52,414 nucleotides of DNA from a virus, in IMG/VR virus record IMGVR_UViG_3300044957_000556, positions 1 through 52,414 of that record. One strand, written 5' to 3'. Positions 4,621 through 50,168 of this stretch are shown here, one piece after another. The notes beneath the pieces were generated by a model that was not told the origin of the DNA, ran no database searches, and was given only the letters and a program-made list of their open reading frames with translations. The position numbers and the translations under genes are program-made. Within the stretch, counting starts at the first letter, position 1. Each line of letters opens with the position of its first letter.

Positions 4621-4881
4621 ATGGAAACCAAAACTTTTAACAACGAACAAAAAATCAAACTCACCCAAATCATCAACGAAGGCATGCAGGTCATGCACGA
4701 AATTGAAACGCTTAACGGTGGCCTGTCAGACACTATCAAAGCCGTGGCCGAAGAACTGGAAATCAAACCCAGTGTGTTGAAAAAAGCAATCCGGGTAGCA
4801 CACAAAGCTGAATTTGGTAAAACACAGCAAGAACAAGAGTTGCTGGAAACTATTTTGACCACTGTTGGCAAAACCCTCTAA
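4621..4881 (+). CDS. dsbA: DsbA-like dsDNA-binding protein of T4-like phages
   Basis: An 86-residue, mostly helical protein, close to the size of T4 DsbA (about 89), which binds double-stranded DNA at late promoters. The central region (LSDTIKAVAEELEIKPSVL followed by KKAIRVAHKAEFG) matches the DsbA-type helix-turn-helix as I recall it from pelagiphage and cyanophage homologues. It has its own promoter and RBS and lies just before the polymerase gene. The DsbA name rests on motif memory; a generic small HTH protein is the alternative. Confidence 0.55.
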   Translation: METKTFNNEQKIKLTQIINEGMQVMHEIETLNGGLSDTIKAVAEELEIKPSVLKKAIRVAHKAEFGKTQQEQELLETILTTVGKTL

Positions 4882-4958
4882 ATACATGCTCACAACGAGT
4901 CGCCTACGTCACGGGCATGAATCACGGCATGAGCAAGCCATAAGTTGCCAGGAAAACA

Positions 4959-7619
4959 ATGAGTTACGTAGACGCACTTTTTGATCGTGAACACGATCGC
5001 ATACATGTGGTAGAACGTGTTGCAGGACGCAGAGAGTACAAAGAATATCCTGCTACCTACATATTTTACTACGATGATCCCAGAGGAAAGTTCCAATCAA
5101 TCTATGGAAATCCTGTCTCTAGGTTTTCTACCCGCAACAACAAGGAGTTTCGCAAAGAACTTCGTATTCAATCAGGCAAAGGCGTCTACGAGTCAGATAT
5201 AAATCCTGTGTTTCGTTGCTTTGAAGAAAACTACAAAGGTCAAGATGCTCCTAGGTTACAAACAGTATTCTTTGACATTGAAGTAGACTTTGATCCTATA
5301 CGCGGTTTCTCCAAGCCCGAGGATCCCTTTAATCCTATCACTGCCATCTCAGTGTATTTGGATTGGTTAGATCAACTGGTAACCTTGGTCATACCACCCA
5401 AACACATGAGTCGAGAATCAGCCGAAGAGATTGTCAAAGAGTTTGACAATACCTTGATCTTTGATCGCGAAGAGGACATGCTTAAAACGTTCCTTGATCT
5501 CATTGACGATGCAGATGTACTCAGTGGTTGGAACTCCGAAGGTTTTGATATTCCATATACTACCATGCGTATTACTCGTGTGCTCAGTAAGGACGACACA
5601 CGCAGACTGTGTTTGTGGGGGCAACTGCCAAAACAAAGAACATTTGAAAGATTTGGTGCAGTAAACTTGACCTTTGATCTCATTGGTCGAGTACACATGG
5701 ACTATATGCAACTGTACAGGAAGTATACCTATGAAGAACGACACTCCTACTCGTTGGATGCTATCGGCGAGTATGAACTCGGCGAACGAAAGACGCAGTT
5801 TGAAGGAACGCTTGATCAACTCTACAATCAAAACTTCAAAACGTTCATTGACTACAACCGTCAGGATACAATGCTCCTTGCAAGGTTGGACAAAAAACTC
5901 CAATTCTTAGATTTGGCCAACGAACTAGCACATGCCAACACTGTATTGCTACAGACCACAATGGGTGCTGTGGCAGTGACAGAACAGGCCATCATCAATG
6001 AAGCCCACGAACGTGGCATGGTAGTTCCTAATCGCAAAGAGAGACTCACAGATGAAGACACGCAAGCTGCAGGTGCCTATGTTGCTTATCCCAAAAAAGG
6101 CATCCACGAATGGGTCGGTGCTATCGACATCAACTCGCTGTATCCCTCGGCTATTCGTGCCCTCAACATGGCGCCAGAAAGTATTGTTGGGCAACTCCGA
6201 CCCATCATGACTGATCGTTATATCCGGGACAAAATGAACTCAGGTGCCAGCTTTGCGGCTGCCTGGGAAGGCTTGTTTGGCAGTCTTGAATATACCGCTG
6301 TAATGGAACAAAAGCCTGGCACAGAAATAACCATTGATTGGCAGGACGGTGAAGAAACAGTACACAGTGCCGCAGAAATATGGCACATGGTGTTTGATTC
6401 AAACCAGCCTTGGATCTTATCGGCCAATGGCACTATCTTCACTTATGAAAAAGAAGGAGTGATTCCCGGCTTGCTGGCACGTTGGTACAGAGAGCGTAAA
6501 GAGCTACAGGCCAAACTTAGGGAAGTCACTGGCAAACAAGACCAAGAGTTTTGGGATAAACGTCAGTTGGTCAAGAAGATTAATCTAAATAGTTTGTATG
6601 GTGCTATTCTTAACCCTGGTTGTAGATTCTTTGACAAGCGCATTGGTCAGAGTACTACTCTTACTGGTCGTGCGATCGCATTTCACATGGACAGTTTTGT
6701 AAACGAATGTATTACCGGCAAATATGATCACACAGGCGAAAGTATCATCTACGGTGATACAGATTCTGTATACTTTTCCGCTTGGCCTGTACTCAAAAAA
6801 GAAGTTGAAGAAGGTCGTATGGAGTGGAACAAACAAATCTGCGTTGAACTTTATGATTCTATTGCAGAGCAAGTAAACTTGAGTTTTCCGGGATTCATGG
6901 AACGTGCTTTTCATTGCCCACGTGACATGGGGGCAATCATCAAAGGTGGACGGGAACTGGTAGCTGATCGCAGTTTGTTCATTACCAAGAAGCGTTACGC
7001 TGTAAACATCTACGACAAAGAAGGCAAACGCAAAGACGTTGAAGGTAAGACAGGATCAATCAAGGCCATGGGGTTGGATTTGAAACGGTCAGACACACCC
7101 AAAGTTATTCAAGACTTTCTGTGGGACTTGTTAGAACGTGTTCTCACAGGCAGTCAACGAGAGGAAATCATTGAACAGATTAGAGAGTTTAAATACGAGT
7201 TCAAAGAACGACCAGGTTGGGAAAAAGGATCACCCAAGCGTGTGAACAACCTCACCATGTATGCTAAGAAAGAAGAGCGTGAAGGCAAAGCCAACATGCC
7301 TGGGCATGTGAGAGCAGCCATGAACTGGAACAACATGCGGCGAATGAACTCTGACAACTATTCTTTGCAAATAGTTGATGGCATGAAGACTATTGTGTGC
7401 AAACTGAAATCAAATGCTCTGGGGTGGACATCAATCGGTTATCCCACTGACGAGATGCATTTGCCACAGTGGTTCAAGGAACTGCCATTTGATGATGCAG
7501 AAATGGAACAGACTGTGGTAGATCAAAAGATAGAAAACTTGTTGGGTGTGTTGGGTTGGGATTTGGTCAGTGAAACCAAAACTACCAATACATTTCAATC
7601 ATTGTTTACATTTGAATGA
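4959..7619 (+). CDS. 43: Family B replicative DNA polymerase (T4 gp43 type)
   Basis: 886 residues, near the 898 of T4 gp43. The 3'-5' exonuclease domain comes first: FFDIEVDF with D106 and E108, then NSEGFDIPY and YNRQDTMLLA. The polymerase domain has motif A DINSLYPS (about 390-397), motif B KKINLNSLYG (about 540-550) and motif C YGDTDS (about 598-603). All catalytic carboxylates are present, so proofreading and synthesis should both work. It should act with the sliding clamp encoded at 8572. Its stop overlaps the start of a methyltransferase gene (ATGA). Confidence 0.97.
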   Translation: MSYVDALFDREHDRIHVVERVAGRREYKEYPATYIFYYDDPRGKFQSIYGNPVSRFSTRNNKEFRKELRIQSGKGVYESDINPVFRCFEENYKGQDAPRLQTVFFDIEVDFDPIRGFSKPEDPFNPITAISVYLDWLDQLVTLVIPPKHMSRESAEEIVKEFDNTLIFDREEDMLKTFLDLIDDADVLSGWNSEGFDIPYTTMRITRVLSKDDTRRLCLWGQLPKQRTFERFGAVNLTFDLIGRVHMDYMQLYRKYTYEERHSYSLDAIGEYELGERKTQFEGTLDQLYNQNFKTFIDYNRQDTMLLARLDKKLQFLDLANELAHANTVLLQTTMGAVAVTEQAIINEAHERGMVVPNRKERLTDEDTQAAGAYVAYPKKGIHEWVGAIDINSLYPSAIRALNMAPESIVGQLRPIMTDRYIRDKMNSGASFAAAWEGLFGSLEYTAVMEQKPGTEITIDWQDGEETVHSAAEIWHMVFDSNQPWILSANGTIFTYEKEGVIPGLLARWYRERKELQAKLREVTGKQDQEFWDKRQLVKKINLNSLYGAILNPGCRFFDKRIGQSTTLTGRAIAFHMDSFVNECITGKYDHTGESIIYGDTDSVYFSAWPVLKKEVEEGRMEWNKQICVELYDSIAEQVNLSFPGFMERAFHCPRDMGAIIKGGRELVADRSLFITKKRYAVNIYDKEGKRKDVEGKTGSIKAMGLDLKRSDTPKVIQDFLWDLLERVLTGSQREEIIEQIREFKYEFKERPGWEKGSPKRVNNLTMYAKKEEREGKANMPGHVRAAMNWNNMRRMNSDNYSLQIVDGMKTIVCKLKSNALGWTSIGYPTDEMHLPQWFKELPFDDAEMEQTVVDQKIENLLGVLGWDLVSETKTTNTFQSLFTFE

Positions 7620-44529: not shown

Positions 44530-45645
44530 TCAGGTTTCTTTTATTATATCCTTAGCAAGATCAGTGAGCTCCCCTAGATGCTTGGTCACAGTTTCCGCTG
44601 GTATATTGCGCAGGGTCAGTATGCTTTGCATTTTCTTTACAAAATCTTTTCGAAAATCTTGATTGTAGTTTACAGATCCCATGGTCAGCTTGAACTGAGA
44701 TAACATATTTTTTTGTGCAGTGGTAAGTTGATACTGCACACAGTGCTGGTCCAAAATATCGGCAATCACTTGTTTTTCATCAGCAGTAAGTATGCGCCAT
44801 TCTAACCAGGATGGTGCCTGAAGATTGACCAATACTGTTTGTAAACGATTTTTATTGCACCATTCCATCAAGGCAGCAATATATTGTATGTTTAAAGGCT
44901 GTACCACTGTGTTTACGTGAATGTGTTGATTGGGCAAAGTTTTTTTCAACATCACAATGTTTGCCTGCACAGTATCCCACTGCGCTGGATATCTCATAAA
45001 GTTATATGAGCTTTCGATTCCATCTAGGCTCACTTGAATGTCAACATGAGCTGCCTGTTTCAGCAAGGCCAACTGCGTTGGAAGCAAGATTGTTGCATTG
45101 GTCACAATGTTTATTTTTAGTTTTCGCTCTATGGCTTTTTCTAACAGCAAAATATTTTCCTTGGCAAAGAAAAACTCGCCGCCGATAAAACTAACTGATT
45201 CAAGATCAGACAACTGCTCCAAGGCTTCCTGCACTTGTTGGTTGTGATTGATCACAGGATAAGATTCTATCCAGCCCAATGTCCGACGTTCGCTGCCCAG
45301 AGCAGTGCTATAAGTTGGGTCGCACATGAAACATTTGAGATTGCAGGTGTTATTGACCAAGATTTCAAGATGTATTATTTTTGATCTGTTGTCAGATTGA
45401 AAAAAATGATTGTAACGTTGTCTAAAACTGGGCTGTCCTTTGAGTTCTTGATTGGCACAAAGTCTGCAACCTAAAGGCAAAGGCTTTTCAGACTGTAGAT
45501 GTTGTTTCAGTTCCTGTAACTCAGTGCTGGCTAGATACTGAGAAATTGATTGCGCAGGCATAGGCTCTTTATAATGACAACAGGGTTTGTATTCAGGGCC
45601 CGAATCAATACGAATGTTGATAAATGGTTGTATGCAATAAGGCAT
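44530..45645 (-). CDS. Radical SAM protein with N-terminal Cys segment (minus strand)
   Basis: 371 residues from the ATG at 45645; an upstream start would cross tRNA-Ala. NNTCNLKCFMCDP (C101, C105, C108) is the CxxxCxxC site, and SFIGGEFFFAKE the GGE motif. Upstream, YKPCCHYKEP and LGCRLCANQEL resemble the twitch-type auxiliary Cys found in SPASM relatives, placed N-terminally. VTNATILL and SLDGIESSYNFMR follow the family order. The substrate is unknown. It runs against its neighbours. Confidence 0.75.
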   Translation of the reverse strand: MPYCIQPFINIRIDSGPEYKPCCHYKEPMPAQSISQYLASTELQELKQHLQSEKPLPLGCRLCANQELKGQPSFRQRYNHFFQSDNRSKIIHLEILVNNTCNLKCFMCDPTYSTALGSERRTLGWIESYPVINHNQQVQEALEQLSDLESVSFIGGEFFFAKENILLLEKAIERKLKINIVTNATILLPTQLALLKQAAHVDIQVSLDGIESSYNFMRYPAQWDTVQANIVMLKKTLPNQHIHVNTVVQPLNIQYIAALMEWCNKNRLQTVLVNLQAPSWLEWRILTADEKQVIADILDQHCVQYQLTTAQKNMLSQFKLTMGSVNYNQDFRKDFVKKMQSILTLRNIPAETVTKHLGELTDLAKDIIKET

Positions 45646-45656
45646 AAGATATTTAA

Positions 45657-45731
45657 GGGGAGTTAGTATAGTTGGGAAAACATTGCGCTTGCACCGCAAA
45701 GTCAGGGGTTCGACTCCCCTACTCTCCACCA
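45657..45731 (+). tRNA. tRNA-Ala (anticodon TGC), second copy
   Basis: Acceptor GGGGAGT/ACTCTCC, discriminator A, CCA; anticodon arm TTGCG-CTTGCAC-CGCAA; T arm AGGGG-TTCGACT-CCCCT. Better paired than the copy at 42711. Confidence 0.9.
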
Positions 45732-45771
45732 AATACAATGTTGTAAGATCATTTAGATAAGTAAAAATACT

Positions 45772-45945
45772 ATGCGAGAGTATGCACCCAGCGGCGCTCC
45801 TGGATCTGCTGGCAATGATGATAGGGTGAGAGGCCCTAGGCCACGCGAGGGCTATACATGTCTCGATAGGCTCGTGAAAGTATTGCTGTATGAAGCCGAG
45901 AGAAAAGTGTTTTGGATGCGGGTTCGATTCCCGCCAGGTCCACCA
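45772..45945 (+). ncRNA. ssrA: Permuted tmRNA, acceptor (3') half
   Basis: The 3' end GATGCGGGTTCGATTCCCGC (T arm) then CAGGTCC-A-CCA is that of a tmRNA tRNA-like domain. CAGGTCC pairs with GGGCCTG at 46031-46037. TGCTGT (45884-45889) pairs with ACAGCA (46074-46079) to form helix 2. Upstream, GAGA/TCTC encloses GCCCT/AGGGC. The gene order 3' half, spacer, 5' half is that of circularly permuted two-piece tmRNAs. The upstream limit is uncertain. Confidence 0.82.
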
Positions 45946-45957
45946 TAAGAGGATTGT

Positions 45958-46029
45958 ATGGATGACATAACTAGATTCGCTATTGGATTTATTGTAGCAA
46001 CCGTGGTCATGCTGTTAGTCCTTTTATAA
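45958..46029 (+). CDS. 23-residue hydrophobic peptide in the tmRNA intervening segment
   Basis: Between the CCA end (45945) and the 5' half (46031) an ORF reads MDDITRFAIGFIVATVVMLL then VLL and TAA. AAGAGGA lies just upstream at good spacing. Residues 6-23 form one transmembrane segment after an acidic start, like a tiny holin-type or regulatory membrane peptide. The ORF fills almost the entire intervening segment. Confidence 0.5.
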   Translation: MDDITRFAIGFIVATVVMLLVLL

Positions 46030-46030
46030 T

Positions 46031-46195
46031 GGGCCTGCATTGGATTTTGACAGGGCAAAGAGTAACAGAGTGGACAGCACGACAGGAGTAGTCGTTAAAA
46101 GCAAAACAACGTAAACGCAAACGACGAACAGTTTGTATTGGCCGCCTAAACTTGGTCTAGGGTTTGCCGGGTTCCTCGTAACAGAATACCCGGTC
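46031..46195 (+). ncRNA. ssrA: Permuted tmRNA, coding (5') half with tag ORF
   Basis: It starts GGGCCTGCATTGGATTTTGA, matching the 5' end of tmRNAs, and holds the resume codon GCA at 46117. The tag reads ANDEQFVLAA, stop TAA 46147-46149, ending in the LAA degron recognised by ClpXP. A hairpin CCGGGT/ACCCGG (46167-46193) closes the 3' side. tmRNA rescues stalled ribosomes; a phage copy may serve when host mRNAs are degraded. The 3' end touches the convergent gene at 46194. Confidence 0.85.
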
Positions 46196-47090
46196 AAAAT
46201 TCTCGAGAATAATCAGCAGTTGAGATTTCAGCAAGATGTTGCGTTTTCCAGCGATCAATCACTGATTGTTCTATGCCATATTTTTTAAGAACTTGCTCTG
46301 TGATTTCAACTTTTTGAGGAGTCGAATCTTTTCTAGTGTGTTTCCAGATGCGCATAGAATCCCAGCAATCAAACAAACTGGCTTGTTGTTGTATCTCTTC
46401 AAGACTCAGTGTTTGCCAGATTCCGCAAAAGTTTACAAATTCGTACTCATCATCGGTCATTGGCATCACTGATTCAGCATCGCAGTAGTTGAAGATATAA
46501 AAGTTTGACCATTCTGTAGCACCCGGAAAAGTTTTCCATGTTTGATATGGGCCAAATCTTGCTTGCATATGAGTCCAAAACTTTTCAAGTTCGGCTGTGG
46601 CCCATATCCAAGGAGTGGTATTAAAAGGTGTAGGAACGCCATCTGGCACGTGGTCCAGTATGTCAAGGGCAGGCACGTATTGTTGCCGGAATGTGTTTCC
46701 ATTTTTAAAATATGCAACACGATACCTGTCACCAGGTTTGAAGAAATCAATGTCTGTTGGTTTGAGCAAAAAATCTTTACAATCAAATACTATGGTATCT
46801 TGGAATCTAGGATCTATAGAAAATCGAACTTTGTTGACTTGTTGTTCGCAGTATCCTGCCATTCCGTGCATAGCACCATCTACTACTTCTACTTGCCATG
46901 AACTATCAAAGATATCCTTTACTAGGTTTGTAAATGATCCTATGTCCGACGTCTCTGTGTGCAACGGGTTTGGTTGCCCCCAGGAAATTGTGATGGCCTG
47001 ATTTCCCAGCCAGTTCTTATTAAGACAATGGCAACACAGTTCAAACTGGGCAAGATCTCCTGAGTAAGTGGCAATAAAAAGTTTGTGCAT
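46194..47090 (-). CDS. DUF6492-like putative glycosyltransferase (minus strand)
   Basis: 298 residues from the ATG at 47090. HKLFIATYSGDLAQFELCCHCLNKNW is the N-terminal block of DUF6492-like proteins (LF..TY..D...F..L..SL). DTIVFDCKDFLLKP may be the metal-binding acidic strand of a GT-A fold, and WSNFYIFNYCDAESVMP follows. A sugar-transfer role is inferred only. Its 3' end is directly against the tmRNA. Confidence 0.5.
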   Translation of the reverse strand: MHKLFIATYSGDLAQFELCCHCLNKNWLGNQAITISWGQPNPLHTETSDIGSFTNLVKDIFDSSWQVEVVDGAMHGMAGYCEQQVNKVRFSIDPRFQDTIVFDCKDFLLKPTDIDFFKPGDRYRVAYFKNGNTFRQQYVPALDILDHVPDGVPTPFNTTPWIWATAELEKFWTHMQARFGPYQTWKTFPGATEWSNFYIFNYCDAESVMPMTDDEYEFVNFCGIWQTLSLEEIQQQASLFDCWDSMRIWKHTRKDSTPQKVEITEQVLKKYGIEQSVIDRWKTQHLAEISTADYSREF

Positions 47091-48856: not shown

Positions 48857-48995
48857 GTGACTGTCAGCCTTGCTCACTTGGCCAACGTCAATAAGTGCCG
48901 ATAGCAAAATGACCGGGTGACGATTATCGCGAGGTAACAAGAGCCGCAGAAACCAAATGTCTGCGCCGGACTGGGTAACCGGCATACATATTTCC

Positions 48996-50168
48996 ATGTC
49001 CAAGATTATTTCCATAGAACCTGCGATAGATCCTACAGCAAGACCAACATTTTTATTGGATTGGGAGTTAACTTTAAAATGCAATCTTGATTGTAGTTAT
49101 TGTCCTTCTGAAGGACCTTGGCGATCACACGACAACAAAAGCCCTCATCCGCCATTGGATGAATGTTTGGCTTCTATTGATTTTATGTACACATATGTTG
49201 ACTTGTACATGGCAAAGAAACCACGTTGGAGTCGTGCTGTAGTGTTAAACATCTACGGAGGCGAAAGTCTATTTCATCCTAACATAGTTGAAGTGCTGGA
49301 ACAGGTCAAAGAGCGTCACAAATCTTATCAAGATCGATGGCCTTTGACTGTAACTTGCACCACCAATGCCGTAGTGGGGCCATCATTGATGTCTCGTATA
49401 GCAGATTTCATTGATGAGTTCACAGTCAGTTATCACTGCGAAAATCTAGTAAAACAGAAACAGCAAGTTTTAAAAAATATGTTGTTGCTCAAAGAAAAAA
49501 ATCGAAGATTGAAATGCATTGTGCTCATGCACGGTAACTACGATTACTGGCCCGAGCTTGAAGAAGTAATAAGTTTTTGTCAAGCCAATGATATAAAATA
49601 TCTGCCACGGCAACTTGACGGAGATGTAAACTCAAACTATGGTCAAAAACAAATCACATGGTTTCAAAATCTCTGGCAGACTCGCAGTCCTCAAAAATCT
49701 AAACTCAGACAAACAGAACTCACAGATGGTCAAGTCACTGACAGTCAGTTAAGCCGTGTTGGTAGAGCCTGCTGTGGTGGCAGATTGATGTGTACCAACA
49801 GTGATTTTAGGCAGCCAATATTTTATGTTCCTAACAATCATTTTGAAGGATGGAGCTGTAGTGTGAACTGGTTTTTTCTAGCCATACGTCAAAGCACCGG
49901 AGAAATATTTGTAAACAAAGATTGCCGAATGAACTTTGATGGAACAATGAGTCCATTGGGGTTTCTCAAGAATTCAGCCCATTTGTTGACACAAACACAG
50001 CAACAGCTAGAACAAGGTGTTCCATTTATGATCTGTGCCAGAGAACGGTGCTATTGCGGCTTGTGCGCACCCAAGGCTCAGACCCCTGAACAACTTTTGG
50101 ATATCATGAAAAAACATGTAGCAGACGGCCATGTTGAGTCTTGTAAATCAACCAACCCTAGTGTATAA
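48996..50168 (+). CDS. Radical SAM protein with Cys-rich C-terminus
   Basis: 390 residues from the ATG at 48996 (an upstream ATG at 48957 is possible). LDWELTLKCNLDCSYCPSEG carries C29, C33, C36; LNIYGGESLFHPN is the GGE motif; TCTTNAVV and VSYHCE follow. C-terminal ACCGGRLMC, GWSCSVNWFFLAI...NKDC and CARERCYCGLC give an auxiliary cluster-binding region as in SPASM enzymes. A peptide- or sugar-modifying role is likely; no substrate gene is recognised. Confidence 0.78.
   Translation: MSKIISIEPAIDPTARPTFLLDWELTLKCNLDCSYCPSEGPWRSHDNKSPHPPLDECLASIDFMYTYVDLYMAKKPRWSRAVVLNIYGGESLFHPNIVEVLEQVKERHKSYQDRWPLTVTCTTNAVVGPSLMSRIADFIDEFTVSYHCENLVKQKQQVLKNMLLLKEKNRRLKCIVLMHGNYDYWPELEEVISFCQANDIKYLPRQLDGDVNSNYGQKQITWFQNLWQTRSPQKSKLRQTELTDGQVTDSQLSRVGRACCGGRLMCTNSDFRQPIFYVPNNHFEGWSCSVNWFFLAIRQSTGEIFVNKDCRMNFDGTMSPLGFLKNSAHLLTQTQQQLEQGVPFMICARERCYCGLCAPKAQTPEQLLDIMKKHVADGHVESCKSTNPSV

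Follow-up and report, generated by a model that had tools for sequence, protein, structure and literature searches.

Tail processing after the CCA and RNase P cleavage at G1 are established steps in the maturation of permuted tmRNAs. Such tmRNAs are also encoded by phages: Buchholz et al. (2022) described one in phage Melnitz and reported 53 two-piece molecules among 133 phage tmRNA structures (PMC9004378), and the 2025 tmRNA database contains 79 bacteriophage sequences (PMC11915505). The tmRNA described here is therefore by itself a further case of a known type, and the view taken in the original prediction, that a permuted arrangement is notable in a phage, had been overtaken by that publication. 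For the internal transcribed spacer (ITS) that lies between the encoded CCA and G1, the nearest precedents are single tmRNA spacers that contain a tRNA gene or a repetitive element (PMC11915505). A literature search, which did not cover subscription papers, brought up no description of a protein gene in such a spacer.

Judged by analogy, the closest counterpart to such a gene is the S23p reading frame in intervening sequences of 23S rRNA. In Coxiella this is also a protein ORF in a segment that is cut from a stable RNA to leave a fragmented RNA (PMC4990558), but the host gene is 23S rRNA, excision is by RNase III, and there is only one protein family. The Coxiella Shine-Dalgarno sequence is lost on excision, and the ORF is seemingly unexpressed and decaying (PMC4990558), whereas in the ITS the Shine-Dalgarno sequence stays in the spacer and the ORFs are under purifying selection. 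The locus reported here does not meet S23p membership, as it is a tmRNA and not a 23S rRNA locus, and none of the representative cargos scanned against Pfam matched S23. In tmRNA genes, group I introns that carry homing endonucleases likewise place a protein gene in a segment absent from the mature RNA (PMC11915505); however, these are self-splicing, are in the T loop and have an endonuclease as cargo, whereas the ITS has no intron, is at the permutation joint, and mostly carries genes that are not endonucleases.

Permuted tmRNAs of the Rfam families RF01850 and RF04321 share with the window (the whole stretch of 52,414 nt analysed here) the gene order, both halves, the acceptor stem, the tag and a spacer between the CCA and G1. 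The bacterial spacers differ in being short (36 nt in Thauera, 69 nt in Novimethylophilus) and without a filling gene, although few were examined; only five permuted genes were over the cut-off in 150 bacterial genomes, and the comparison is thus small. Among cultured phages, a first DNA search gave no convincing Shine-Dalgarno-led spacer ORF in Mendera, X1, Rb1, QDWS595 or BUCT-ZZ01. The permuted tmRNA of Sinorhizobium phage Phosso (PV764938.1, 349596–350198) is of the alpha type, and no ORF is evident in its spacer of about 460 nt. The Melnitz two-piece ssrA resembles the window in being a phage-encoded permuted tmRNA with a Shine-Dalgarno-led spacer frame, which in Melnitz runs on into the coding piece, and departs from it in being of the alpha type. 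We report here that the beta-type two-piece tmRNA of the window very probably has an ITS that acts as a slot for exchangeable protein genes.

A complete permuted tmRNA

The window encodes a genuine beta-type circularly permuted tmRNA (Table 1); that it yields two mature pieces, is charged, binds SmpB and acts in trans-translation is inferred. The Rfam models beta_tmRNA (RF01850; 45839–46215, 130.2 bits, E 1.8e-39) and tmRNA_permuted (RF04321; 45884–46149, 123.8 bits) span both halves and are well over their cut-offs of 84 and 47 bits, and ARAGORN calls a tmRNA* at 45853–46240. The two-piece tmRNA predicted at 45772–46195 is thus real in its permuted architecture, although its ends need trimming, with 45772 taking in an upstream element of the closest relatives only and 46195 lying before the ends given by ARAGORN and Rfam. 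Nor did the tmRNA escape existing models, as the prediction had suggested it might for standard one-piece ones: the permuted models and ARAGORN all detect it.

Both the 3′ tRNA-like half with its CCA and the 5′ tag half are present, in that order, so the gene is permuted. The acceptor strands GGGCCTG and CAGGTCC form seven of seven pairs with a single G-U at pair 3-70, helix 2 is intact between TGCTGT in the acceptor piece and ACAGCA (46074–46079) in the coding piece, and ARAGORN gives the same tag peptide, ANDEQFVLAA, a short frame with a hydrophobic degron-like terminus. The G3-U70 pair, the established alanine identity element, is invariant in all 41 sequences compared, and the tag frame, acceptor stem and helix 2 are complete in the window and in most cargo-bearing loci. 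No intron model was matched in the Rfam scan and the T arm of the window is uninterrupted, so the locus is not a group I intron case. Permuted tmRNAs are at the syntenic position in relatives L011 and L012.

A search of viral contigs with the exact tag-region pattern gave no match. We note that ARAGORN assigns tags of 24–31 aa to L137, L159, L181 and L211 (also L112, L131, L146 and L150), several of which share a FDFSAMSFTGNTV-like sequence; these could be either truly long tags or the result of a mis-set resume codon.

Table 1. Coordinates of the tmRNA locus and associated features in the window
Feature	Position	Strand	Basis or note
Leader directly upstream of acceptor piece, ~115 nt	45768–45883	+	76–85% identity in relatives
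tmRNA locus, both pieces and spacer	45884–46240	+	Rfam, ARAGORN
Acceptor (3′) piece core, with helix-2 strand TGCTGT	45884–45945	+	RF04321 and RF01850 alignments, ARAGORN
T arm, acceptor piece	about 45918–45934	+	
Acceptor strand CAGGTCC	45935–45941	+	
Discriminator A	45942	+	
Encoded CCA	45943–45945	+	
ITS, 85 nt; removal in mature tmRNA inferred	45946–46030	+	Between encoded CCA and G1
5′ strand of 11-bp ITS helix; contains Shine-Dalgarno-like AAGAGGA	45946–45956	+	Fixed-register pairing, covariation
Small ORF within the ITS, 23 aa, MDDITRFAIGFIVATVVMLLVLL, with one predicted hydrophobic segment	45958–46029	+	ITS peptide family
3′ strand of ITS helix; codes last residues of nested ORF	46016–46026	+	Pairing, covariation
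Coding (5′) piece: acceptor strand, helix-2 strand, tag, 3′ region	46031–46240	+	ARAGORN, Rfam
G1 (46031) and acceptor strand GGGCCTG	46031–46037	+	
Tag reading frame ANDEQFVLAA and stop	46117–46149	+	ARAGORN

Phage and genomic context

The window is a 52-kb virus record fragment with a family-B DNA polymerase and 20 tRNAs predicted by ARAGORN. Relatives with 80–93% identical polymerases are common among viral contigs, some of more than 300 kb, and the closest polymerases of cultured phages are those of the jumbo phages Phosso (50%) and Agrobacterium phage Atu_ph07 (46%). No SmpB gene could be identified in the 12 records checked, one of which was the window, and SmpB is therefore presumed to come from the host. 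The tmRNA region lies between two radical SAM proteins (44530–45738, minus strand; 48957–50168, plus strand), and the predicted start of the first overlaps a tRNA-Ala (45657–45731).

The leader immediately upstream of the acceptor piece is conserved in L011, L012 and L103/L382/L383 and is absent from other phage tmRNAs. It matches no Rfam family over the cut-off, and could either belong to the precursor or be an RNA in its own right. In L383, at about 4879–5050, there is a tRNA-Glu just past the tmRNA with a long hairpin at its CCA (TAAGCAAACATA ... TATGTTTGCTTA), which resembles the tmRNA spacer helix.

A nested reading frame in the window spacer

The sequence AAGAGGA is positioned right after the CCA, and an ATG 12 nt past the CCA opens a frame of 23 sense codons whose TAA stop ends 1 nt before G1. 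This meets the layout of ITS cargos, which are Shine-Dalgarno-led, start 7–18 nt past the CCA and fill the spacer inside a conserved helix. The predicted product has a mean hydropathy of 3.0 from residue 7 onward and is probably a membrane peptide, although its translation and function are inferred without RNA or protein data. As far as sequence comparison can indicate, support for a frame of only 23 codons comes from its family and not from its own length. The window peptide belongs to a family of 11 ITS peptides and is 57–61% identical to those of L131, L139, L150 and L154, with changes mostly at third codon positions. When the window peptide is clustered with 12 others, all 13 have an open coding frame, whereas the two alternative frames are open in 0 and 2 of them. 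Loci L005 and L011 have a like layout with other sequences, as does L012, with a 59-aa product.

Reading frames in the spacers of phage tmRNAs

A first scan of viral contigs for tRNA-like ends followed by NAAGR gave at least 119 stretches, with 95 distinct spacers among the matches listed. We scored a spacer as filled if an ORF starting 7–18 nt past the CCA occupied at least 60% of it, and 54 of the 95 were filled (among the matches listed). Full shuffles gave 4.7 ± 1.9 (maximum 10), and shuffles in which head and tail were kept gave 13.4 ± 3.1 (maximum 25). The stop codon is 1 nt before G1 in 40 of the 54 filled spacers (among the matches listed).

Because the purine-rich spacer start in this pattern favours Shine-Dalgarno-like sequences, a second sample was picked only by the 5′ half, ignoring the start of the ITS, and provided 71 distinct spacers among the matches listed. 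Eleven of these are filled, compared to 3.4 (maximum 8) and 4.5 (maximum 10) in the two types of shuffle, and there are five ORFs of more than 35 codons where 0.25 are expected; a purine-rich Shine-Dalgarno strand is associated with the presence of an ORF (Fisher p 8e-6), all among the matches listed. The overall excess is smaller in this sample, which is the only one free of the Shine-Dalgarno selection bias, and a fair first estimate is that about one in six phage permuted tmRNAs has an ITS gene.

The combined set has 177 permuted tmRNA loci among the matches listed, of which 85 have an ITS ORF (65 ending inside the spacer, four with two ORFs and 16 that read through) and 92 have none. Over 13 disjoint pairs, substitutions at codon positions 1, 2 and 3 number 96, 53 and 173 (p 4e-14), and frames +1 and +2 are closed in nearly all members of two peptide families. 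These patterns show purifying selection on the ITS ORFs, as read from codon changes alone and with no transcript, ribosome-profiling or protein data. One further locus (L244/L386) has a spacer ORF and is on a contig binned in an Alteromonadales MAG; we suspect that this is a phage contig, but this is unproven.

A conserved spacer helix

Of the cells that match spacer positions 1–11 to positions −5 to −15, 94% are paired, in ORF-bearing and ORF-less spacers alike, and other registers are 0.39–0.63 paired. Compensatory changes on both sides are observed for nine of the 11 pairs (41 distinct sequences), with a covariation of 0.571 versus 0.184 for shuffled and at most 0.142 for slid alignments. 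The predicted fold of the window has an energy of −36.5 kcal/mol (z −4.05) and keeps the Shine-Dalgarno strand paired, and the average paired probability of the Shine-Dalgarno sequence is 0.92 in the predicted helix, which could hide it and possibly block translation.

The helix also leaves its mark on the proteins. The C-terminus VSL is common to nine cargo families that are not otherwise related, because the 3′ end of the helix provides the last codons and the stop. A single register is kept over 32 families, and the genes and processing signals are thus at least structurally locked together.

Cargo families and their turnover

The 32 families into which the ITS cargos cluster (among the matches listed) include hydrophobic peptides of 22–27 aa, coiled-coil-like proteins of 52 aa and a 123-aa protein of unknown family, as well as a thioredoxin (L202; Pfam 4e-21) and a CxxCxxCC protein (L151). 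In addition, and outside of the 177-locus count, the 531-nt spacer of L142 contains a gene for a 152-aa HNH homing endonuclease (phrog_655, 2.6e-15), which has its own Shine-Dalgarno sequence and ends in HVSL 1 nt before G1. That the small membrane cargos act on the host membrane is no more than a guess. The spacers of L106, L184 and L223 are long; L106, L107 and L184 have two consecutive small hydrophobic ORFs, the first of which is conserved in L223.

Cargos change frequently. Parsimony on a quick tree of the tmRNA halves requires at least 65 cargo changes (loci among the matches listed), although this count is approximate, given the shortness and poor resolution of the tree. One example is the pair L138 and L159, which have near-identical halves and different cargos; in a second example, the halves of the window and its nearest relative L012 are 87% identical and the cargo differs. 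Near-identical halves with different cargos indicate that genes have been swapped in the ITS. In other phages, homologues of several cargos are encoded elsewhere than in the ITS, in some instances no more than ~100 nt away. The simplest inferred route for exchange is homologous recombination across the conserved halves, and the HNH gene of L142 suggests homing as a possible additional one.

Read-through reading frames and Melnitz

In 13 of the 16 read-through loci (among the matches listed) the end of the spacer coincides with a codon boundary and no stop precedes it, so cleavage at G1 would make a nonstop message; frames of this kind are present in L110, L115, L126, L129, L133, L138, L141, L160, L207, L320 and Melnitz. 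In Melnitz (MZ577097) the spacer has GGAGAAG, an ATG and an open frame, MFKWLSKTRLVVITRDYFRERNRKADAKIPKYLSGTRSVYD, with a codon boundary at G1 and its stop in the coding piece; no CDS is annotated inside SsrA in the record. A glutamine riboswitch was considered as an element of the Melnitz spacer and rejected, since it is downstream of the tmRNA.

A model and its alternatives

In the precursor, the acceptor stem would extend via the CCA and a complementary UGAU (UAAU in the window) into the 11-bp spacer helix, and tail processing after the CCA together with RNase P cleavage at G1 is inferred to free two tmRNA pieces plus the spacer. In the window and many relatives the 5′ strand of the helix doubles as the Shine-Dalgarno sequence and the 3′ end gives the stop codon, so that the spacer would constitute a complete minimal message, which in the window would encode a membrane peptide of 23 aa. 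Since the Shine-Dalgarno sequence is paired in the helix, translation is inferred to start most likely either during transcription, ahead of synthesis of the 3′ strand, or once the spacer has been freed; in the commonest class, the freed spacer would be a complete message with one base past the stop. As conserved halves flank the slot, homologous recombination (and in one instance an HNH homing endonuclease) could swap the cargo with the tmRNA unharmed.

A simple objection is that the ORFs are coincidental, with the processing helix supplying a purine-rich strand and a TGA, and a T-rich spacer reading as hydrophobic. Short ORF-less bacterial spacers such as that of Thauera do have both a TGA before G1 and AAGG after the CCA, about 13 of 95 spacers (among the matches listed) are filled even in shuffles with head and tail preserved, and a 23-codon frame is easily open by chance. 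We nonetheless regard coincidence as very unlikely, given that the fill is far over both types of shuffle in both samples, that substitutions are in excess at third positions (p 4e-14), that the +1 and +2 frames are closed in nearly all members of two peptide families, and that thioredoxin and HNH domains are recognisable. We attach just as little weight to the proposal that the tmRNA is not functional in rescue and is a decoy titrating host SmpB, with the cargo as the selected part: the window and most cargo-bearing loci retain an intact tag frame, helix 2 and an acceptor stem with its G3-U70 pair, which does not fit it, even though no SmpB gene was found in the 12 records and a phage tRNA-like domain without a tag (DS6A) is similar to a demonstrated inhibitor of tmRNA (PMC4131195).

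It is harder to set aside the possibility that the nested genes are real and unrelated to tmRNA maturation, the spacer being a tolerated insertion site in a compact genome that is expressed from ordinary read-through transcripts. Cargo homologues do occur just outside tmRNA genes, the cargos have no common function, and the ITS of many phages are without an ORF. However, the start signal is within the processing helix, the stop is mostly 1 nt before G1 (40 of 54, among the matches listed) and the register is constant over 32 families, and we consider this alternative possible but somewhat doubtful. The reading that we prefer remains that of the ITS as a slot for exchangeable protein genes. An extended version, in which the spacer is a regulated second maturation product, is speculative and in our judgement unlikely; here a helix switch would hide the Shine-Dalgarno sequence, cleavage at the CCA and G1 would free the minimal message, and the read-through class would give a nonstop message that is tagged and rescued by the phage tmRNA in a feedback loop.

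Implications

Annotation pipelines miss real phage genes of this type, as illustrated by the unannotated spacer frame of the published Melnitz genome, and Melnitz offers a ready cultured experimental system. The small membrane peptides constitute a compact list of candidate host-takeover factors. In these loci one sequence serves both RNA processing and translation, which makes them a new natural system of this kind, with a possible direct link between production of tmRNA and production of a tmRNA substrate. With expression inferred, a supposedly discarded part of a housekeeping RNA gene can be an expressed and exchangeable gene slot.
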